Shown in pieces: positions 1 through 43,564 of a DNA stretch of 43,564 nucleotides (within the stretch, counting starts at the first letter, position 1; every line of letters begins with the position of its first letter). Source of the stretch: a virus; the IMG/VR virus record IMGVR_UViG_3300017971_000115, positions 1 to 43,564 of that record; one strand, written 5' to 3'. The notes under the pieces were generated by a model that had not been told where the DNA came from, searched no databases, and worked only from the letters and a program-made list of their open reading frames with translations. The translations under genes and the position numbers were made by a program.

Positions 1-123
1 CATAGCTCCCGGTGACAGCCGGGATCGTGTGGCCAACCTCATAGGCAAACCAGAAATTCGCACGGGGGAGGGCGTCCACCCGGAGGAACAAGTCCCCGAG
101 CTCCTCACAGGTATAGGGATCGC
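1..123. repeat. Terminal direct repeat, left copy
   Basis: These 123 bases are identical to the last 123 bases of the window. They lie inside a protein-coding gene that reads through the join without a break. The simplest reading is assembly overlap of a circular or circularly permuted genome of 43,441 unique bases. A true short terminal repeat in the virion DNA cannot be excluded from sequence alone. Confidence 0.95.
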
Positions 124-220
124 CCGAGGCCTGGTTGGCCTGGTCAAACGCCATCGGGAGGGTGACCGCCCCGCCCACCAGGGCCGCGGCCGCGATCAGG
201 ATGTTTCTCAATCTGGTCAT
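1..220 (-). CDS. Exported cysteine-rich protein, N-terminal part (gene crosses the junction)
   Basis: This is the 5' part of a gene that continues at 43441 and ends at 42951; joined, it encodes 236 residues with no frame break. The ATG at 218-220 overlaps the stop of the preceding gene (ATGA), so translation is probably coupled. The first 24 residues form a Sec-type signal peptide: MTRLRN, then a hydrophobic core ILIAAAALVGGAV, then a polar region. The mature part holds 10 cysteines, an even number that suits disulfide bonding after export. I recognise no domain. It follows two other genes with signal peptides and precedes the lysis genes, so it is probably made late and sent to the periplasm or surface of the infected cell. 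A role as a virion protein is less likely but possible. Confidence 0.8.
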   Translation of the reverse strand, partial: MTRLRNILIAAAALVGGAVTLPMAFDQANQASGDPYTCEELGDLFLRVDALPRANFWFAYEVGHTIPAVTGSY

Positions 221-2226
221 GGTGCCACCACCGCCGGGTACAAGGTGAGGTAGTCAAAGTGGCCACTGGCACAAAATTGCCCGAGCCGGTTGCCGCACAA
301 ACGCGCCCTGGTGTAGGTGCTGGCGATCGCGGCATAAGGTCCGGCTGTGTTGTCGAGAATGCCGTCGACGTACAAGGCACCCTCCGCAAGGGACCAAGTC
401 CAACGCATCGCAACCTGAGAAACGCCCGAGATCCTGGTTGTCCCGGTGAGGCTCCCTTGGCTCACACCGCCGGCGATCACTGTCATCCCGGAGGCCTGGC
501 CGGTGGTCACATTGTAGGCGTACACCTGATCGGTTGTGCTGTAGTCCACGGCAAAGAGGTTTCCAGCAAAATAGGCCGTCGCCCCGATCGACTCGTAGCC
601 CACCTCGGCGGTGCCGTTTTGATTTGGCACGGAGCCAAGGTTTCCGTCATTGGCCACCCAGGATAGATCCTCATCCGCTCGCTGTGCGCTTGTGCTGGTG
701 GTTGCCATGTAGCTTGACACGGTGGCGTAGGTGTTAACTGAGGTGTTGTCCAGCTGGGCGCCACCGGCATAGACCATGATACCGGCGTCCGAGAAACTCC
801 GATCGCCATCCGACTCGGCGGCACAGATCTCGATCGTGTCAGTGGTTGAAACCGCATACCAGACCATGGATCCCCGGCATGTGGACCCGATCAGGTCGGC
901 CTGAAAAGCTCCGGACCCGGCGGTGCAAGTCGAGGCATTGAAGTAGGCACAGGTGGGGCCAGACCGACAGATCGCGACCCAATCCCTGGTCCCGGGCCTG
1001 GCGTGGACTGACAGAAACGTCCGGCGGGCGGAGGTGATGCCGGTAATCGCCTGGCTAACACAGTGGGTATCGTCATCAATCGTGCCCTGTAGGCCAGTGA
1101 GCCAGGCGGCTCCGCCCGGACCACTGGCCGACCCGCTTGTGCTCACCCTGGTCTGGGTCCAGCCGCTTCCGAAATTGTTGGACTGGATGATCAGATTCTC
1201 ACTGGTGGCCTCGGCCAGGTATCGGCCACCCTCCACCCGGGGCCAGTCCTCCCCTACCGTGTAATACAGGCCGCCCCTGGTCAGGGTGGCGGCCGTGCTT
1301 CGGTCGATCGTGGCTGGCGTTGCGGTACCGTCAGAGCTCTGAGGGTAGACCCCAGTGAGCTGGGCGTGGCGCTGGCGGGCCAGGGTGGCCATCGACGGGA
1401 GGCCGGAGGCTCCACAGGTGTAGGCCGCCAGCAATGCGATCTCATTGACCCCGCCACCGTTCCCACCGCTGAATTGCCCGATCGTGAATAGATCGGCGTT
1501 GGAGGTAGAGCCCAGGGCCGCCACGGACTGGGCCGATCCGCTTGCGTTGCCATTGACGTACCACCGAGCTGATCCGTCCTGGTCTGAGGCCAGGATCCCG
1601 TGGTACCAGGCGCCAGTGGCGATCGTTGCAGTCCCGGGGACTACCACACCACCAGAGTCCTCGAGCTGGGCCCGGATCACTGGGCCGCCGATTTGCCTGA
1701 TCACCCACCCCGGACCACCACCGCTATCGTTCTTTGCAAAGAGGACACCGCCAAAGGCTCCAACCTTGAACACCACCTCAATCACGATATCGGTGGACGA
1801 GAAGTCCAGATCGTAGGTGCCGGATGCGTCCGGTTGATAGCAGCGCTTGGCGGTCCCCGGGGCCTGGGCCGCTTCCGTGCCGTCCGCCAAAGGGGTCTCG
1901 AGCCCTAGCGTGAAATCACCTGCAAAGCATGCGGCGTCCAGGGTCTCCCCTACATCACCGCTCCAGGTGGTGGTGGTGGCGTCATCGCCCACGTACCGAA
2001 ACACGGTTGAGCACCCATCGATCGCGGTGGGGAGGGAGGAGGCCCCATAGCTGGCCGGAAAGTCCATTGAAAAGGACGGGAGGACCTCCGGGACGGTCCG
2101 GGCCGGGACATCCACCCCGATCCGCGGTGGGTTCAGCCGGCCACCGCCGATCCTGGGCTCGGAGCTCGAGCCACCAAGCTGAACGCTGGCCAAGGCCGCC
2201 CCCAGTAGGAGCATGGTCCGGATCAT
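217..2226 (-). CDS. Exported LamG/jelly-roll adhesin-like protein
   Basis: 669 residues. The N-terminus (MIRTMLLLGAALASVQLGG) looks like a signal peptide. Three beta-rich modules can be seen. Residues about 105-290 resemble a LamG/concanavalin-like fold (WVIRQIGG, ARWYVNGN, LFTIGQFSG). Residues about 340-520 resemble the jelly-roll found in phage spike and fibre proteins (ENLIIQSNNF, GGAQLDNTSVNTYATVSSY). Residues about 540-669 look like a second LamG-like unit (ALYVDGILDN, GHFDYLTLYP). There are 12 cysteines, unusual for a cytoplasmically assembled virion part. It overlaps both neighbours by 4 bases. Carbohydrate or surface binding is inferred from the folds. The position after the tail fibre would fit a receptor-binding protein, but the signal peptide and cysteines argue for export. 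Confidence 0.75.
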   Translation of the reverse strand: MIRTMLLLGAALASVQLGGSSSEPRIGGGRLNPPRIGVDVPARTVPEVLPSFSMDFPASYGASSLPTAIDGCSTVFRYVGDDATTTTWSGDVGETLDAACFAGDFTLGLETPLADGTEAAQAPGTAKRCYQPDASGTYDLDFSSTDIVIEVVFKVGAFGGVLFAKNDSGGGPGWVIRQIGGPVIRAQLEDSGGVVVPGTATIATGAWYHGILASDQDGSARWYVNGNASGSAQSVAALGSTSNADLFTIGQFSGGNGGGVNEIALLAAYTCGASGLPSMATLARQRHAQLTGVYPQSSDGTATPATIDRSTAATLTRGGLYYTVGEDWPRVEGGRYLAEATSENLIIQSNNFGSGWTQTRVSTSGSASGPGGAAWLTGLQGTIDDDTHCVSQAITGITSARRTFLSVHARPGTRDWVAICRSGPTCAYFNASTCTAGSGAFQADLIGSTCRGSMVWYAVSTTDTIEICAAESDGDRSFSDAGIMVYAGGAQLDNTSVNTYATVSSYMATTSTSAQRADEDLSWVANDGNLGSVPNQNGTAEVGYESIGATAYFAGNLFAVDYSTTDQVYAYNVTTGQASGMTVIAGGVSQGSLTGTTRISGVSQVAMRWTWSLAEGALYVDGILDNTAGPYAAIASTYTRARLCGNRLGQFCASGHFDYLTLYPAVVAP

Positions 2227-2687
2227 GGGGTCAGAATCGAAGCACTGGCCGAGGCCACCGAGCCGGTCCCGTCCGCCGGATCATCCAGGTAGCATCGGAG
2301 GCGAGGAGCTCGAGCCTTGACCAGGGTCTCCCAGACCGTGATCGCTCCGTCGATCTCGTAGGTGGCCCGGCCTTTGGTGCAAACCGCTGGGCTTGCGTCG
2401 GTGCAGTGGGGGATCCAGCCCCATACCGTCCCATCCGTGGACTCCTGACAGCTGACCGCCACATCCTCAGAGTCCCCTGGGGTCACGGACCAAATGAGCA
2501 GGACCTCAGTGGCCCAGCCCTGTGGCCCGTAGAGGGAGATCACATCCGTGACAGGGGTGTCCGCCAGGTCCTCGCCATTGATGCCGAGATCATCGATGAT
2601 CCGGAAAGCTTGGGTTTTGGCGCCGGCGCTCACGGCCGTGAGCAGGATCGCAAGTCCAAAGAGGATCGCGGGGTAGATTCTGGACAT
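2223..2687 (-). CDS. Small exported protein with four cysteines
   Basis: 154 residues. The start at 2687 is chosen over an in-frame one 16 codons upstream because AGGAGG sits 7 bases before it and because it places a clean signal peptide first (MSRIYPAILFGLAILLTAVSAGA). The mature part is about 130 residues with four cysteines (SCQES, HCTDA, VCTKG, RCYLD) and reads as a small beta-sandwich. No family is recognised. Its stop overlaps the start of the LamG-like gene. It is the first of three consecutive genes with signal peptides, which suggests one exported module rather than three unrelated genes. Confidence 0.75.
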   Translation of the reverse strand: MSRIYPAILFGLAILLTAVSAGAKTQAFRIIDDLGINGEDLADTPVTDVISLYGPQGWATEVLLIWSVTPGDSEDVAVSCQESTDGTVWGWIPHCTDASPAVCTKGRATYEIDGAITVWETLVKARAPRLRCYLDDPADGTGSVASASASILTP

Positions 2688-2740
2688 GGGTGGACCTCCT
2701 GGCGGGAGAATCCCCGACAGGTCCGCCCGGGTCAAGGACG

Positions 2741-4351
2741 CTAGATCCGCTGGGCTGTCATGGCCAGGATCTCAGAGGTGATCGCGGCATTTGCGATCGT
2801 GAATTCGTTGGTCACCACCAGGCTATTGCCCACATTGGTGGGGAGGGCCAAGGTGGTGTAGCCGGAGTCCGTCATCACCTGGCTTGTGGCGTTGATCGGT
2901 TGGAAGGTAGTGGCGGCCCCGGCCAGATAGGCCGTGTCCTTGGTGTGGACCATCGCCCCGCCACCAGCCCCGATCGTGTGGAACCTCAGGAACATTTCCA
3001 ACATATGGGTGTACCGATCGGTGCTGGGGAGGCTCTGGCCACCACCCAAAACCGTGGCCAGGTCATACATCAGAGTCCCGGTGAGGCCACCCCAGCGGAT
3101 CCTGTGACGGTAGACCACCGGGCCGCCACCGGCCTGGTGGCTGAGGCGGAGCCAGATCCTCAGGAGGAACATGGCACCGACCCAGATCCTGTTGGCCGGG
3201 AATGCGACGCTACCGCCGGTCAAAACCTGCTCTGCGGTGTAGTTTCCATCCGGGGTGCCGGACTGGTTTGCAAATGCCGAGCAAACCCGCTCGGCCCCAA
3301 ACACGCTTTGGTGGCTGACCTGATCGGCCCGATCGGACTGGACCCATACGCCACCAACGGCCCCGGAGGTGGGTGAGGTCTGAGGGACCACCCGGAGGGC
3401 GGACTTGATCGCGTTTTCGGCCTCGGCCTCAACCCCGTGTCCGTTGAGGCTGTGAGCGTAGAGCGCCCCGGCCCCGGCGGCCGCGTTGTCATCCACCTCG
3501 AGGGCGTCCGCCGAGTCCCCTGACAGGTTGGTCACGGCCATCCGCCTGGACGCGATCAGGGCCTTGGCTGACCCATCCGCCCGGAGGTAGTCCGTTGGAT
3601 TCCGGAGGGCGCCACCGGCCCCCTGGCCGCCATCGATTGCGGCGATCACCGCATCGCCGTAGCCGTCCCCTCGGGCGGTACCGCTCTTGAGGGTAGCCGT
3701 CCCCCCGTTGGTGTCCGTGCCAGTGGCCGCCCCGCCCTGGGTTGCTGCTACGCCGCCAGCCGCCCCGCCTGGGCCGCCATCGCCACCGACCACAGAGGCC
3801 GCCCCGCCCGGGTTGGTGGTTGCTCCTGTGCCACCCTTGAGGGTGGCCAGACCAGCTCCGCCGGTCCCGCCGGCGCCTCCGGTGATCTCGGCGTCCCCAC
3901 CGCCACCAGCGCCAGCGCCAGCGCCAGCGGTCAGGGTCAGATCACCACCGTTGCCAGCGGTGTCCGCATCGCCACCGGTGAGCTCCACCGCCCCGCCTGT
4001 CCCCACCCCGGCCGCTGCTCCACCGATCACCTTGGCCGCCCCGCCGTTGCCTGTGGTGATGGCATCACCGCCGGCGATTGCCATTGTCCCGCCGGACCCT
4101 GGATCCGTGACCACCGGGGCCTGGATTAGGAAGTCCTCGGCATCCCCTCCGCCACCGTACAGGCCATCAAGCCCCCGCTCATCCCACCAACGGGTCCACT
4201 CGCCACAGAAATACTGGAGCCAATTGAAGTAGGAGCTCGGGGGCGCCTCATTGAGCGCCCAGCCCAGGGACTTCTTGGCCGCGTTGGGCTCGGTCTGGTT
4301 GGTGAGGCTGGTGTTCCACTCGGGGATCTTTGCTGGTTTGCTGGTTGCCAT
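2741..4351 (-). CDS. Tail fibre with glycine-rich 16-residue repeats
   Basis: 536 residues. The N-terminal 60 residues (PEWNTSLTNQTEPNAAKKSLG, APPSSYFNWLQYFCGEW, WWDERG) match the baseplate-attachment segment common in phage tail fibres. Residues about 86-235 hold roughly nine units of about 16 residues of the form GGxAxIxGGxxxxxxGx, for example GGAVELTGGDADTAGN. A glycine-packed shaft, either polyglycine-II-like or a short beta-helix, is inferred. The C-terminal 300 residues are non-repetitive and probably form the tip. It starts 4 bases after the baseplate gene's stop, with GGGGA as ribosome-binding site. It is the likely host-recognition fibre. Confidence 0.85.
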   Translation of the reverse strand: MATSKPAKIPEWNTSLTNQTEPNAAKKSLGWALNEAPPSSYFNWLQYFCGEWTRWWDERGLDGLYGGGGDAEDFLIQAPVVTDPGSGGTMAIAGGDAITTGNGGAAKVIGGAAAGVGTGGAVELTGGDADTAGNGGDLTLTAGAGAGAGGGGDAEITGGAGGTGGAGLATLKGGTGATTNPGGAASVVGGDGGPGGAAGGVAATQGGAATGTDTNGGTATLKSGTARGDGYGDAVIAAIDGGQGAGGALRNPTDYLRADGSAKALIASRRMAVTNLSGDSADALEVDDNAAAGAGALYAHSLNGHGVEAEAENAIKSALRVVPQTSPTSGAVGGVWVQSDRADQVSHQSVFGAERVCSAFANQSGTPDGNYTAEQVLTGGSVAFPANRIWVGAMFLLRIWLRLSHQAGGGPVVYRHRIRWGGLTGTLMYDLATVLGGGQSLPSTDRYTHMLEMFLRFHTIGAGGGAMVHTKDTAYLAGAATTFQPINATSQVMTDSGYTTLALPTNVGNSLVVTNEFTIANAAITSEILAMTAQRI

Positions 4352-4354
4352 GGG

Positions 4355-4933
4355 TTAGGTCCCCTCGATTGCGGTGGTCCAGAAATAGGAAGTGGAGTCG
4401 AATCTCGATCCCAAGTAGCCATCCAGGAAAAAAGGCCGGGTGCGCTCATAGTAGTGGAATAGCCACCGAAAACCGGTGGCCCTCGAGCTCCTCAGGAGCG
4501 AGGCCACAAAGGGCCCGACGCCTGGAGGGATGGCCACATCCACCACCGTGACAGTCCCGGCCGCCGGGTACTCCTCCACGGCCTGCACTGTGGCGGCTCC
4601 GGCATAGACGGCCGCGATCACCCCAATGATGTCCTCGATCGTTCCACGGCTCAGGTTAGCCAGGACCTGGCCTCTGAGGATCGAGCGGTATTGATCGTCA
4701 TCCAGATCCGGCCGCTCCCGCCCGATGATACTCCCGATCACGTCCAGGTTGACCCCCTCCGCTGTGTCGAGGGTCCGCTCAAACGCCAGCTTGAGGAGCT
4801 CGAGGTCCAGCTCCTGGGACTGGGCCGAGGCCGCATCGATCACGGCCTGGATATTGGGGAGCGTTTTAAATTGCTCGAGGAGGGCGTCCCGTGCGTCACC
4901 CTGGTGATCGTTGTTCGCTTCGAGGACTGACAC
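4355..4933 (-). CDS. Baseplate protein, gpI/DUF2612-like
   Basis: 192 residues from a GTG start preceded by AGGA; the next ATG would remove conserved sequence. The helical N-terminal half contains a typical baseplate stretch (LDVIGSIIGRERPDLDDDQYRSIL), followed by VLANLSRGTIEDIIGVI and a small beta-rich domain. Known proteins of this type follow the J-like wedge protein and link the baseplate to the fibres, as in P2 gpI and Mu gp48. The position directly between the J-like protein and the tail fibre supports that role. The exact family name is an inference. Confidence 0.8.
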   Translation of the reverse strand: MSVLEANNDHQGDARDALLEQFKTLPNIQAVIDAASAQSQELDLELLKLAFERTLDTAEGVNLDVIGSIIGRERPDLDDDQYRSILRGQVLANLSRGTIEDIIGVIAAVYAGAATVQAVEEYPAAGTVTVVDVAIPPGVGPFVASLLRSSRATGFRWLFHYYERTRPFFLDGYLGSRFDSTSYFWTTAIEGT

Positions 4934-4941
4934 GGCCGGTC

Positions 4942-6447
4942 CTAGGTCGGGACAACGGGTGTGGCCACCACGTTGATATTGCCATCGATGATCGTCGCGA
5001 TCTCATCCTCATCAATCGGGACGTTGGCCTCAGTTACCGGGGAGGGTGCGTCCCCAACGTCCAGATCGGTGACATCATAGACGCCAGCCACCCCGGACAC
5101 GGCCGCCTTGACCTTGGCCGCGATCACATCCCCATCGATCCTGAGGCCATTGACGTAGGCTGAGATCGCATCCTTGACCGCCTGGTCCCCGGCATAGTCA
5201 GCCGCGATCACATCCACATCGACATTGACGTAGATCGGGACCTCGGTGGCCCAGTCCCATCGGATCGTTTTGGTGAGGCCCTGGGAGTCCACGATCCCCT
5301 GGCTCTGGGCCCCGTTGGTCTCACCGCCGGCGGGCTTGTTGTCAAAGATCACCTGGGCCACGGAATCAGCCAGCGCCACGGGAGCAGCTACCACCGATCG
5401 GGAGCTGTGGGGCTCCAGACCACCGGCCGCGGTGTCCGTGTTGTTTTCGTAGACCCTGGCATCCTCCACCCCGGAGATCGCCAGGAGCTGGGCCCGGATC
5501 GTCTCAGTTGTGGAGCTCCCCTGCCGCTCGAGCTCATCAAACCGCCTGCCCCTCAGCTCGGCGTTGGTCTCCTCATCCGCCCCGACCGTTGAGTCAACGC
5601 CATCAAACCCGTTGATCGCTCCGGTCTCGAATCCCAGGCCGGTGGCGGTTGAGCTCACATCGATATCGAGTTGGGAGCTGGCGCCCTCCGTGTCGCTCGC
5701 GATCTTGACCCGGCCGGCGTCGGGGGTTGCTGTCACCCCGGTGATGTCGGTCTCGATCACAGCGGCCACCTCTGCGGCTGTGGCATTGGCGATATCGGCA
5801 AAGTCCGCGGTATTGAAAGTGGCGGTTTGGTTGCCTCCGCCATCCACCGCCACCACCAGGGTCTGGCCATCGGCGAGGGTGAAGGGCTGGGAATTGCCAG
5901 ACCACTTGACCGCCGGGAGATCGTCATTGCTCACGGCCAGCCAGCCAGCCACAGGGGTATCGATCACAGTGAGCGAGCCCTTGTTGGCCACCGTGGAGCT
6001 CCCTGGCTCCGTGGCGGTCCAGCTCCCGGCCACCCACTTTCGGGCGGTGCCGGCGTTGCTGACCGCTGCGTCCAGGCCAAACTTGGAGGCCTCGACATTC
6101 TGGACCGAGGCCTCCTTGGCCGCCGCCACGGTTGTCCCGGGCTCGAGCTCGAGGGCCGCGGTTGCAGTGGTCGGGGTGGCGTCCGCCCTGCTCACCCCGG
6201 TCAGGGCGGCCAGGGCGTCTAGCTGGGCATCGTTGGCCTGCTCCGGATCCATGGCGGCCCAGAGGGACTCCCCGAGCTCCCAGAGCTCACCGATCCGATC
6301 GGCATAGATCCCGAGGATCACGCCCAGGATTGAGTCAGCCTGGGTGTTGATCTCGGCCCCGAGCTCCGCCTTGATGGCGTCCGCCATTTCCTCCCGGATC
6401 TCGGAGCTTGTCTTGTTGGTCCAGCCTGTGGCGTCCAGTCCTGGCAT
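4942..6447 (-). CDS. Baseplate J-like wedge protein
   Basis: 501 residues. The N-terminus (GLDATGWTNKTSSEIREEM, ADSILGVILGIYADRIGELWEL) and the central stretch GADEETNAELRGRRFDELERQG are hallmarks of the baseplate J family (P2 gpJ, Mu gp47, T4 gp6). The C-terminal part (VPIYVNVDVDVIAADYAGDQ, VYDVTDLDVGD) forms the usual alternating beta-alpha domain. Residues about 170-275 look like an extra inserted beta domain. It would form the baseplate wedge around the hub. It lies between the gp25-like and gpI-like genes, the standard contractile-tail order. Confidence 0.93.
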   Translation of the reverse strand: MPGLDATGWTNKTSSEIREEMADAIKAELGAEINTQADSILGVILGIYADRIGELWELGESLWAAMDPEQANDAQLDALAALTGVSRADATPTTATAALELEPGTTVAAAKEASVQNVEASKFGLDAAVSNAGTARKWVAGSWTATEPGSSTVANKGSLTVIDTPVAGWLAVSNDDLPAVKWSGNSQPFTLADGQTLVVAVDGGGNQTATFNTADFADIANATAAEVAAVIETDITGVTATPDAGRVKIASDTEGASSQLDIDVSSTATGLGFETGAINGFDGVDSTVGADEETNAELRGRRFDELERQGSSTTETIRAQLLAISGVEDARVYENNTDTAAGGLEPHSSRSVVAAPVALADSVAQVIFDNKPAGGETNGAQSQGIVDSQGLTKTIRWDWATEVPIYVNVDVDVIAADYAGDQAVKDAISAYVNGLRIDGDVIAAKVKAAVSGVAGVYDVTDLDVGDAPSPVTEANVPIDEDEIATIIDGNINVVATPVVPT

Positions 6448-37865: not shown

Positions 37866-38240
37866 CTAGGGCTCGGGGCCGACGATCGGATCTGTGGGCG
37901 GGTCTAGCCATGAGCAATCTGGGTCATAGTCGGGATCGTCCTCATCCATCCAGTCGGAGCAAACCGCATCCCGGAGATCCTCCCATACGTTCCCAAAGAA
38001 CCATCCACACTCAAACCGGTCATCACGGACCGAGGCGCATAGCTGGCAAGTCCGGTAGACCAACACCACCGGGCGCCTCATGTGCGGATCATAACAGGCC
38101 TCACACCGAAATGGCGCACCAGGGGGTATGACCCGATCGCACTCAATGCACTGCCGAGGCTCGGTTGACGTTTGGGCGTCAATGGCGATCAGGCTCTTGA
38201 AACAATAGTCCGGCTCAATGCAGACACACGCATCAGCCAT
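37866..38240 (-). CDS. Cysteine-rich zinc-binding early protein
   Basis: 124 residues overlapping the nuclease stop by 8 bases. There are more than ten cysteines in pairs: CIECDRVIPPGAP, FRCEACYDPH, YRTCQLCASVRDDRFECGWF, FGNVWEDLRDAVC. This resembles a zinc-finger family common in phage early regions (C-x2-C, I-P-P-G, then C-x2-C). The C-terminus is acidic. Function unknown; the position between recT and its nuclease suggests a link to recombination. Confidence 0.72.
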   Translation of the reverse strand: MADACVCIEPDYCFKSLIAIDAQTSTEPRQCIECDRVIPPGAPFRCEACYDPHMRRPVVLVYRTCQLCASVRDDRFECGWFFGNVWEDLRDAVCSDWMDEDDPDYDPDCSWLDPPTDPIVGPEP

Positions 38241-40703: not shown

Positions 40704-41357
40704 TCAGATCTCGAGCTCGGCCTGGGTGAGCGGGTCCGGTTGCGGCCCCCGCATCCCGGCGAACCGTTGCCAGGGGAACAACGGGCCCGGGTCCAGCTTG
40801 CGGCCCTCGGGGGTGGCGATCTCCTCATGCCCGATCAGCCTCAGTGGGTAGCCGGCCTCCCCGAGCTCGTTGAGGTAGCGCTCGAGCGCATCGATCTGCA
40901 CCTCCGGGTAGGGCTCCCACCAGCCCTCAACCTTGTGGCCGCCCGGGTAGGTGAGCGAAGCAAACACGGGATCGGGTCCCTTGTAGCGGTAGAACCGGCC
41001 GCCGAGCTCGTAGAAATATCCCGTGCCAAGGTTCTCCAGCATGAGGTGATTCCCGAGCTCGATCCCGATCGTGGCGGCATTGACCTGTGCTCCCCTGAGA
41101 TCCAGAGCCTTCCACCTGGACCGGCCCGCATGCCATGCCGATCGGCTGAGGGCCACTTGCTGGTAGACCGATCCGCCCCGCGAGATCGCCAGGTGCCAGC
41201 TCCGGCCCAGCGGTGAGGTGGCCGCCCAGGAGCAAAGGGACTGGGTCCGCCCGGCCGCGGTGGCGTGGATCACCTGGCCCAACACCTCCTGGCCGTGCCG
41301 ATCGCTGTGATCGAGATCCGGGATCCGCTGGTAGGGGTCGATCCAATCGGGGAGCAT
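40704..41357 (-). CDS. Endolysin, N-acetylmuramoyl-L-alanine amidase
   Basis: 217 residues from the ATG at 41357, which has GAGGAGG at 7 bases. The Amidase_2 zinc site can be placed as H31 (IHATA), H177 (IGHEEIA) and D189 (RKLDPGP), with E100 (IGIELGNH) as catalytic residue, as in AmpD. No signal peptide and no separate wall-binding domain are seen, so it needs a holin for release. It cuts the amide bond between the glycan and the peptide. It closes the lysis cassette. Confidence 0.92.
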   Translation of the reverse strand: MLPDWIDPYQRIPDLDHSDRHGQEVLGQVIHATAAGRTQSLCSWAATSPLGRSWHLAISRGGSVYQQVALSRSAWHAGRSRWKALDLRGAQVNAATIGIELGNHLMLENLGTGYFYELGGRFYRYKGPDPVFASLTYPGGHKVEGWWEPYPEVQIDALERYLNELGEAGYPLRLIGHEEIATPEGRKLDPGPLFPWQRFAGMRGPQPDPLTQAELEI

Positions 41358-41359
41358 GC

Positions 41360-41842
41360 TCAATCCTCCTCGCCGTAGATCTCCGAGATCGTCTGTTGGA
41401 GCTGGGCCCGCTTGGACTTGGCCTTGGGTCTCGCCGATCTGGTGACCGGTGAGGCCCTCCTCCTTGGCTCGGGCTTGGGCTCGAGCTCCACCACCATGGC
41501 CGGCGGTGGGGGCGCCTCGGCGGACAGGGTCCGGCGGGCCTCCCCTCGTTTGCCTGAGGCGAGAGCCTCGGCCGCCCCCTCGAGGCGGGCCAGCTGGACC
41601 TTGAGCTCAGTGATCGCCACCCACTGATCTCGGCGGCTGACCTTCACTCCGCTCACGGTATCGGCGAGGTCCTTGAGCTCCGACTTGAGGAGCTCGATCT
41701 CTGTGTGTTGCTTGGCGTTGATCTCGGCGTGCTTGTCATCCCGGGAGGTGTACGCCTCAACCCCCTGGCTCGCCACCCCGGCCAGCGCCATGGCCGCAGC
41801 CGCCCAGGTCACCGGCTGTTGCTTGATATGTTTGATCGGCAT
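41360..41842 (-). CDS. Membrane-anchored coiled-coil protein, spanin-like
   Basis: 160 residues from the ATG at 41842; the ribosome-binding site is weak. One N-terminal transmembrane segment (PVTWAAAAMALAGVASQGV) is followed by a coiled coil (KQHTEIELLKSELKDLADTV, VQLARLEGAAEALASGK), a PPPP stretch and a basic tail. This is the plan of an inner-membrane spanin or a holin-accessory protein. No lipoprotein partner is obvious nearby. Position directly before the endolysin supports a lysis role. Confidence 0.65.
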   Translation of the reverse strand: MPIKHIKQQPVTWAAAAMALAGVASQGVEAYTSRDDKHAEINAKQHTEIELLKSELKDLADTVSGVKVSRRDQWVAITELKVQLARLEGAAEALASGKRGEARRTLSAEAPPPPAMVVELEPKPEPRRRASPVTRSARPKAKSKRAQLQQTISEIYGEED

Positions 41843-41850
41843 GATCAACG

Positions 41851-42039
41851 CTACCAGTCCAGCCCGATCCCGGCCATCCCGTAGGGGTCCACCCGGCCAG
41901 AGCCCCACCGATGTTGAGCCCCGGCCTCGGCGTAGCCGTACCAGTGATCATCAAATCGGTAGCGAGCATGGATCCTGGCACCGATCCCGGATGCGTCCGC
42001 TAGCACCCCAGCCCGTAGAGTCCCGGCCCCGGCGGCCAT
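41851..42039 (-). CDS. Small beta-strand protein in the lysis cassette
   Basis: 62 residues. Alternating strands with aromatic ends (ARIHARYRFDDHWYGYAEAG, AQHRWGS, DPYGMAGIGLDW) look like part of an outer-membrane beta-barrel, including the terminal W. I recall similar short proteins beside lysis genes in other phages. The frame stays open upstream without another ATG, so the start is uncertain. A membrane-disrupting or outer-membrane role is inferred. Confidence 0.55.
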   Translation of the reverse strand: MAAGAGTLRAGVLADASGIGARIHARYRFDDHWYGYAEAGAQHRWGSGRVDPYGMAGIGLDW

Positions 42040-42065: not shown

Positions 42066-42692
42066 CTACGGGATCGAAGGGTCCGCCGCAGCCGGGGCGG
42101 CTGGCGCCGGCGCCGGTGCTCCCGGGCGATTCGAGCCTTGCCCCCTCCGGTTGCTCTCGGCGATTGCATGGCCGATCCGGCTCTCAACATAGGCCTCAGG
42201 GCTGGCTACAAAGGACCTGAGCCGGTTGAGGTCTACGAGCTCGAGGCCGAGCTCCTTGGTGAGCTCCCAGAGCTCCGCCCACTCCTCGGGATCCACCTTG
42301 CCATCCGCGGTGGCTTTCTGGAGCCAGGCGGATCCATCCTTGCTGTGGAGGATCCGATCATAGGCCATGCCGGCGACACCAACGAGGATCTCATCCACGT
42401 GGGCCAGGAAGGTGATCCCTGTTTTGGCCTCGAGCGCATCAAACCAGATCCCCAGCTTTTCCTTGAGCCACTTCCAGAGCCCAAACCCACCGGCCAGGGC
42501 CACCACACCACCCACAGCCCAGGGGATCCACTGGAGCCAGGCCAGCCGCCCGGCCTCTTGGAGCTCCTCCGGTGGAGCATCCTGGCCCCAGAGTATCCTG
42601 GGGATCAGTACCGCCACCGCAAAGATCAGCGCTCCCACTAGCACCATTGCCCACCGTCTCACCGTCTCGATCATGTCCAGAGCTCCCGTCAT
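42066..42692 (-). CDS. Two-helix membrane protein, putative holin
   Basis: 208 residues from the ATG at 42692, with GGAGG 8 bases upstream; the longer in-frame reading has no ribosome-binding site. Two transmembrane segments are clear (WAMVLVGALIFAVAVLIPRI and WIPWAVGGVVALAGGFGLW). An EF-hand-like or helical cytoplasmic region follows (ATADGKVDPEEWAELWELTK) and an Ala/Pro tail. It lies among lysis genes and is the best holin candidate, though larger than usual holins. Confidence 0.6.
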   Translation of the reverse strand: MTGALDMIETVRRWAMVLVGALIFAVAVLIPRILWGQDAPPEELQEAGRLAWLQWIPWAVGGVVALAGGFGLWKWLKEKLGIWFDALEAKTGITFLAHVDEILVGVAGMAYDRILHSKDGSAWLQKATADGKVDPEEWAELWELTKELGLELVDLNRLRSFVASPEAYVESRIGHAIAESNRRGQGSNRPGAPAPAPAAPAAADPSIP

Positions 42693-42697
42693 GGTTT

Positions 42698-42949
42698 TTA
42701 CCTCCGCCGTTTTGGCTTGGATCCTATCCTTGCTTCGATCGTGGTGACGCGGTTGGCCAGATCCCTGGCCTCGGCCCGGAGCTCCGCCACCGCCTCGGTG
42801 TTGGTCCGGATCCGCTCGGAGCGCTGGGCATCTGCGATCCGGCCGCGGTTGTAGGCCTCTTGGGCGGCGTACAGGCCGCCGGCCGCTACCAGCCCGAGAG
42901 CGAGCCACCCCCTCAATCGCTCGTCCGATTTGCTCCCGCTTTCGCTCAT
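42698..42949 (-). CDS. Small membrane coiled-coil protein
   Basis: 83 residues starting 1 base after the exported protein's stop. One transmembrane segment (LRGWLALGLVAAGGLYAAQ) and a coiled coil (RIRTNTEAVAELRAEARDLA, NRVTTIEARIG) with a basic end. The plan resembles XhlA-type holin partners. A lysis or membrane role is inferred from position. Confidence 0.62.
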   Translation of the reverse strand: MSESGSKSDERLRGWLALGLVAAGGLYAAQEAYNRGRIADAQRSERIRTNTEAVAELRAEARDLANRVTTIEARIGSKPKRRR

Positions 42950-42950
42950 G

Positions 42951-43564
42951 TCAGTCCGGAAGGTCCAGATCGCTCAGGGGTGGGCCGCCTTCGTCCCCCC
43001 AGAATATGGCGGTGATCACCGCCGGGGCCCAGTCCGGTCCGTGTCCAAAGTCTGAGCAGGGATATTGGACGTCCGTGTCCTGGACTGTGCAAGGGGTGGT
43101 CCCTCCTTGGCCGGGCCCGTATAGCTTACCATGGCGACAATAGAGGCCGTCAGTCCGTAGCCAACACGGGTTGACCTCATTGAGCATGCTCGAGCAATCG
43201 GCCTGGGAGAAATGGTCTAGGCACAGGGTTTCCGCATCCTTCCAGGACTTGAGAAACCGGACCTTGCTGTCCGCCGCCCCGAGCTCGAGCCACCCCCGGC
43301 CGTAGTAAAGCGGGGAGTCCACCATCCGGATCACCCACCCGGAGGTGGGGGAGCTGTCCCAGTAGGGATAGGAGGCCTCGGCGTCGCAGTCCTCCTCGGC
43401 CGTGGCGAGGACACAGGCCCCGGTAGCGCAATCGCCGAGGACATAGCTCCCGGTGACAGCCGGGATCGTGTGGCCAACCTCATAGGCAAACCAGAAATTC
43501 GCACGGGGGAGGGCGTCCACCCGGAGGAACAAGTCCCCGAGCTCCTCACAGGTATAGGGATCGC
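42951..43564 (-). CDS. Exported cysteine-rich protein, C-terminal part (gene crosses the junction)
   Basis: Residues 33-236 of the gene whose start is at 220. The last 41 codons of this stretch (towards 43564) repeat the sequence at 1-123. The mature domain holds nine of the ten cysteines here (GDCATGACVL, EEDCDAE, ETLCLDHFSQADCSS, NPCWLR, LYCRHGK, TPCTV, YPCSDFG). It is rich in Asp, Gly and Trp and shows no lysine-rich DNA-binding character. The acidic, disulfide-ready make-up suits an extracytoplasmic protein. No family is recognised. Confidence 0.8.
   Translation of the reverse strand, partial: DPYTCEELGDLFLRVDALPRANFWFAYEVGHTIPAVTGSYVLGDCATGACVLATAEEDCDAEASYPYWDSSPTSGWVIRMVDSPLYYGRGWLELGAADSKVRFLKSWKDAETLCLDHFSQADCSSMLNEVNPCWLRTDGLYCRHGKLYGPGQGGTTPCTVQDTDVQYPCSDFGHGPDWAPAVITAIFWGDEGGPPLSDLDLPD
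43442..43564. repeat. Terminal direct repeat, right copy
   Basis: Exact copy of bases 1-123. It lies within the gene for the exported cysteine-rich protein, whose frame is continuous when the two ends are joined at this repeat. This supports a circular map with 43,441 unique bases. Confidence 0.95.

Follow-up and report, generated by a model that had tools for sequence, protein, structure and literature searches.

Tail fibres and receptor-binding proteins of phages are taken to be cytoplasmic products, which are normally kept there until lysis. Exported proteins encoded by phages are exemplified by T5 Llp and by Cor, which are superinfection-exclusion lipoproteins; genes of this type are not known to form part of a tail operon. 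In the present study we analysed three consecutive genes, designated A, B and C, of an uncultivated contractile-tailed phage (myovirus), whose genome occupies the whole 43,564-base stretch of the IMG/VR record IMGVR_UViG_3300017971_000115 (referred to as the window). These genes, situated directly behind a tail fibre gene, look like one case of a recurrent class, namely Sec-exported, often cysteine (Cys)-rich relatives of tail fibres and lectins encoded in the late tail operon.

The closest known system is that of the MAT (mosaic adhesive trimer) fibres of Bdellovibrio, i.e. exported phage-fibre-like proteins with signal peptides, of both S74 and non-S74 type, in which a conserved beta-rich domain of about 130 amino acids (aa) directly follows the signal peptide (PMC10769870). 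One protein from the phage loci compared in this study (L149; compared loci carry the prefix L) likewise combines a signal peptide with S74. However, the MAT fibres are bacterial proteins of a predator, whereas the cassettes considered here are found in phage tail operons. A, B and C lack S74 according to Pfam, and their likeness to the MAT fibres is one of description rather than of compared sequences. PblA and PblB of the Streptococcus mitis phage SM1 are prophage proteins that act as adhesins on the bacterial surface, but they leave the cell through holin/lysin permeabilisation and attach to choline, with no signal-peptide route (PMC2920869). The Ltp-type superinfection-exclusion lipoproteins (PMC3952083) resemble the trio in being exported and phage-encoded, but possess a lipobox, which is absent from A, B and C.

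Two systems are closer in gene order. The environmental myovirus ctsHD2 (MW202816) shares with the window the sheath-baseplate-DUF2612-fibre-lysis order and the N-terminal domain of the fibre, but it has no exported fibre-like genes at the corresponding spot, where only membrane proteins and a lipoprotein-like gene are present. The related myoviruses L089 and L142, which are among the closest by their fibre, encode LamG/ConA-like proteins (LamG_3) in the same neighbourhood as B, but without a signal peptide and with three (L089) or one (L142, partial) Cys residues, compared with 12 in B. A search of open-access papers gave no description of phage tail operons that contain cassettes of fibre genes with signal peptides (subscription papers and preprints were outside this scope).

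All three genes are located on the minus strand. Gene A (2223..2687; 154 aa) is preceded by a strong ribosome-binding site, the Shine-Dalgarno sequence AGGAGG, placed 7 nt ahead of the ATG at 2687. Gene B (217..2226; 669 aa) and gene C are coupled to it by 4-bp overlaps, the ATG of each lying inside the stop codon of the preceding gene (ATGA at B). Since the first and last 123 bases of the record are identical (1-123 = 43442-43564, an exact repeat), the window closes to a 43,441-bp circle and gene C spans the join: its 5' part (1..220) continues in 42951..43564, giving a protein of 236 aa that ends at 42951. We took the end repeat as a circular closure of the assembly. The positions given in an earlier note on this DNA, as well as its Cys counts (4 in A, 12 in B and 10 in C), proved to be right.

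Export signals were called with a home-made rule, which requires a positive n-region, an uncharged hydrophobic stretch and a small-x-small cleavage site. Gene A encodes a textbook signal peptide (residues 1-23, MSRIYPAILFGLAILLTAVSAGA, cleaved before K; rule score 9.8 with the cleavage site). B meets the rule less strongly, while C has n- and h-regions and a poor cleavage site. Thus, the Sec-like signal formerly ascribed to all three proteins is clear for A, weaker for B and incomplete for C. Neither a lipobox nor outer-membrane targeting was seen in any of them. When the N-termini of 44 genes were ranked by hydrophobicity, the top six places were taken by six consecutive genes, A, B, C and three envelope/lysis genes; the chance of a single run filling these places is about 5e-6 (39 out of 7.06 million), although hydrophobic N-termini would be expected of lysis genes in any case.

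The trio also differs in composition from the structural proteins. Cys accounts for 26 of its 1059 residues (2.46%) versus 11 of 6743 (0.16%) in 21 head and tail proteins (Fisher 4e-15). The even number of Cys residues in each of A, B and C fits disulphides, which by itself is weak evidence. Third-position GC content of A and B is 0.75, compared with a structural-gene mean of 0.81. The observation of an exported-type, coupled and Cys-rich trio is therefore confirmed.

Of the two modules previously proposed for B, LamG was identified as LamG_3 (Pfam Laminin_G_3; residues 149-254, E 7.5e-7, above the Pfam cut-off), whereas the jelly-roll-like module was supported by no profile. This LamG was the only match of the three proteins to Pfam, PHROGs, NCBIfam and PDB sequences. 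For A, a weak hit to a kinase-inhibitor model (E 0.003, far below the cut-off) and matches to PDB entries (E of at least 0.1) were regarded as chance. An AlphaFold2 (AF2) model of A is all-beta and of low confidence (predicted local distance difference test, pLDDT, 55.7), so the mature part of A is probably an all-beta sandwich as far as this model goes; carbohydrate-binding modules were among its top Foldseek matches, none of them significant. The AF2 model of C was unusable (pLDDT 34.8).

Homologues of A, B and C were not detected by 8-mer pattern scans of IMG/VR or by tblastn of INPHARED, and a phmmer --max search against 13,058 open reading frames (ORFs) of the compared loci gave nothing below E 0.1 (the fibre control reached 1e-23). 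For B, 50 sheath-related records added nothing beyond its LamG domain. The proposed search for the same trio in other phages was therefore negative for homologues, but it did reveal other exported proteins at the same position.

The fibre gene upstream of A (2741..4351, minus strand; 536 aa, Gly-rich, without a signal peptide) provided the syntenic marker with which the same spot was compared in other uncultivated phages. Its N-terminal domain, EP..KK..GW...E.PP....NW, recognised by alignment, is common to very many phages (77 ORFs in IMG/VR loci), and the trio lies directly behind a fibre with this KKxxGWxxxExPP-type domain. By phmmer, the fibres of L142 and L170 are closest to that of the window. 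In 58 IMG/VR loci with genes behind the fibre we counted, within five places either side, proteins with a signal peptide but without a lipobox or a further membrane segment. Such genes made up 19 of 205 downstream of the fibre and 0 of 302 upstream (Fisher 2e-8), in a set of loci that includes dependent ones (L111 and L160 are almost identical copies). By our own reading, 12 of the 19, in six loci, are fibre-like and the other seven are lysis-like or small exported proteins; since the downstream side holds lysis genes by nature, 12 versus 0 is the fair count. In related loci, a looser N-terminal test was passed by only 4 of the 487 genes that precede the fibre. The cassette proteins of the relatives are also enriched in Cys (1.18% versus 0.56% in the tail genes upstream; Fisher 1e-5). 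The J-DUF2612-fibre order of the window is kept in all the loci with exported cassettes, within the extent of their contigs. The fibre domains of these loci show mutual identities of only 24-73%, which indicates that the pattern is spread over diverse phages.

In at least seven phages, one to four signal-peptide proteins are encoded directly behind the fibre. Four such genes in a row are present in L154 and three in L240, four are found within five genes in L182, and one or two occur in L149, L150, L243 (same record as L156) and L245 (same record as L183). One exported protein each is encoded in L104 and L108, which were found through the sheath; that of L108 belongs to the family of the first L182 protein. 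The trios of L182 and L240 are homologous one-for-one and in order (39-43% identity), with signal peptides retained. The first pair consists of proteins of about 160 aa (39% identical), the second of proteins of 150-200 aa with 6-7 Cys (42%), and the third of long fibres whose head is rich in Cys (43% identity across the initial 165 residues). In four homologues the signal peptides persist despite diverging letters. The earlier suggestion of a late module of exported proteins is thus borne out by runs of signal-peptide proteins at the same position in other phages.

A fibre-, lectin- or depolymerase-type domain was identified in at least one member of the class at each of three sites: LamG_3 in B of the window, Peptidase_S74 in the L149 protein, which joins a signal peptide to an S74 tail fibre (Pfam 7.9e-10; PHROG tail fibre 4e-12), and Phage_depo_C at the C-terminus of a 1324-aa exported protein of L182. 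The sharp contrast once drawn between the trio and tail fibres could not be upheld, as LamG proteins without a signal occur in L089 and L142 and exported S74 fibre and depolymerase-type proteins occur elsewhere. For the same reasons the trio resembles proteins of fibre/adhesin type to which export was added. Between B and the LamG proteins of L089 and L142 there is no close relationship. As judged from these sequences, the simplest reading is that the fibre/lectin proteins of the module may switch between a cytoplasmic and an exported form across lineages.

Several further similarities were noted among these proteins. Gly-rich GGDxxxxGxGG repeats are present in the tail fibres 2741-4351, L142:4100-6061 and L182:4983-8957, and recur within the 1324-aa exported protein of L182, as though cytoplasmic and exported forms drew on the same fibre shafts. 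The proteins L150:5629-9678, L243:13541-14746 and L245:9752-12136 have in common a motif right after the signal peptide, LK(M/L)GK..S..DK...FDT.DG..N.KL, a candidate for a common N-terminal domain. A recurrent protein of 160-200 aa behind the fibre (L009:22387-22872, L131:1521-2243, L141:6046-6681, L089:5578-6135 and L100:1379-1852) begins like a signal peptide, continues with membrane segments and resembles a holin whose N-terminus is exported.

Taken as a whole, the explanation that we regard as having about an even chance of being correct is that A, B and C are exported relatives of fibres and lectins, which would be freed at lysis and would bind surface glycans, either as docked tips or side fibres or as free lectins. 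According to this scheme, the three proteins would be produced late, co-expressed and sent through the host Sec pathway rather than kept in the cytoplasm. Once in the periplasm, which is oxidising, they would lose the signal peptide and could form disulphides that the cytoplasm would not allow. Opening of the cell by holin and endolysin would then free them together with the virions, and the freed proteins would bind surface glycans. On the completed tail they may serve as docked tips or side fibres; alternatively, they may act as free lectins occupying receptors on debris. Docking is slightly preferred, since the genes occupy the usual place of accessory receptor-binding genes and the exported proteins include an S74 fibre.

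Several points weigh against this explanation. The searches yielded no homologue of A, B or C themselves, and the trio is therefore linked to the exported class by position, signal peptide and composition, not by homology. The signal peptides of B and C are weaker than that of A, and modelling yielded no structure of useful confidence, that of A being weak and that of C unusable. Docking on virions is a conjecture from gene position and from the exported S74 fibre. Furthermore, no lipoprotein spanin was found in the window, and a diderm host is thus an assumption for this phage.

The exported proteins might instead act on the living infected cell, binding or masking its receptor, either at the surface or from within the periplasm, and stopping superinfection or the loss of progeny to infected neighbours. 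Exported phage proteins of the Ltp type are used in this way (PMC3952083), and exported-type, fast-evolving genes (judged by the lack of homologues) are what would be expected of host-specific factors. We nevertheless consider such a role unlikely, given the missing lipobox and outer-membrane targeting. Moreover, S74 and similar fibre-type proteins would be an odd choice for it, and the trio lies in a late tail/lysis operon, which therefore leaves little time before lysis. Glycan binding after lysis was ranked above masking on living cells, as export of a soluble protein through Sec would end in the periplasm if the host is diderm.

It is rather improbable that the trio represents ordinary virion fibres assembled in the cytoplasm, with hydrophobic N-termini serving as attachment or membrane-contact segments. 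The canonical n-, h- and c-regions in A and in the proteins of relatives, as well as signals that stay signals in four homologues while the sequence diverges, argue against it, and an enrichment in Cys makes little sense in a reducing cytoplasm. In its favour are the weaker signals of B and C and the fact that, in L089 and L142, the corresponding region encodes LamG proteins devoid of a signal peptide. Still more doubtful is a role as envelope or lysis accessories, in which the trio would belong to the adjoining holin/spanin/endolysin block and help to disrupt the envelope. The contiguity of the six most hydrophobic N-termini (trio plus three lysis-like genes) would fit such a role, but B carries a LamG lectin domain, and in relatives the exported proteins at this position resemble fibres and are followed by distinct lysis genes. 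When A, B and C were compared with spanins, all proved larger and devoid of a lipobox, and the product of 41360-41851 is a better inner-spanin candidate. Finally, moron cargo, i.e. host-derived secreted proteins that alter how an infected or lysogenic cell adheres or what its surface is like and play no lytic role, would agree with exported, Cys-rich products and the slightly lower third-position GC of A and B, but is barely plausible, as this difference is small, the trio is translationally coupled within a late operon, and the same position in many phages suggests a role tied to the tail module.

The recurrence of fibre, lectin and S74 proteins with Sec signal peptides in the late tail operon of diverse uncultivated myoviruses would mean that some phages either complete their host-recognition parts outside the cytoplasm or release lectins derived from fibres to act on their own. 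Both options are relevant to the question of how bacteria came by exported adhesins that resemble phage fibres, such as the MAT proteins of Bdellovibrio. For annotation pipelines, it would mean that a signal peptide should no longer count against a structural gene. A more far-reaching proposal, which we put forward tentatively and think somewhat unlikely, is that disulphide-bonded fibre tips, Sec-exported, folded in the periplasm and docked at lysis, may constitute a lineage-spanning way of building tailed phages.

The analysed genome carries, on the minus strand throughout, genes for the sheath, tape measure, baseplate hub and wedge, major head protein, protease, portal and TerL. Behind the baseplate wedge (J-like) protein (4942..6447; phrog_6, 7.2e-48) follow the DUF2612 baseplate protein (4355..4933; Pfam DUF2612, 4.9e-12), the Gly-rich fibre, A, B and C, then three small membrane proteins and the endolysin. 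The first membrane protein (42698..42949; 83 aa) has a charged tail, probably a coiled coil, and is likely lysis related; the second (42066..42692; 208 aa) is a holin candidate, and the third (41360..41851; 163 aa), with an N-terminal hydrophobic segment and a long charged tail, is the putative inner spanin. The endolysin (40704..41357) is an N-acetylmuramoyl-L-alanine amidase (Pfam Amidase_2, 6.4e-18). Hence the flanks are indeed a tail fibre gene upstream and lysis genes downstream, as had been claimed. No promoter- or terminator-like sites were seen in 1-5000.

Scans of GTDB contigs with the sheath alignment and the A3 family gave no matches to a host. The TerL and ParB matches (Aeromonas phage 56, Myxococcus phage Mx4 and Myxococcus plasmids) were too distant to name one, and Mx4 has no exported proteins behind its baseplate genes. 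Matches of the J protein to L003-L006 were not informative. Lipoprotein-type genes are found near the cassettes of L150, L243, L245 and L104 and in the record of L154, which suggests diderm hosts for these cassette phages. In L095, a lipoprotein-like protein of 150 aa with 13 Cys (2504-2956, plus strand) is encoded on the strand opposite to the tail genes. Within the window, a small protein with 12 Cys and no signal peptide, probably zinc-binding, is encoded at 37866-38240.
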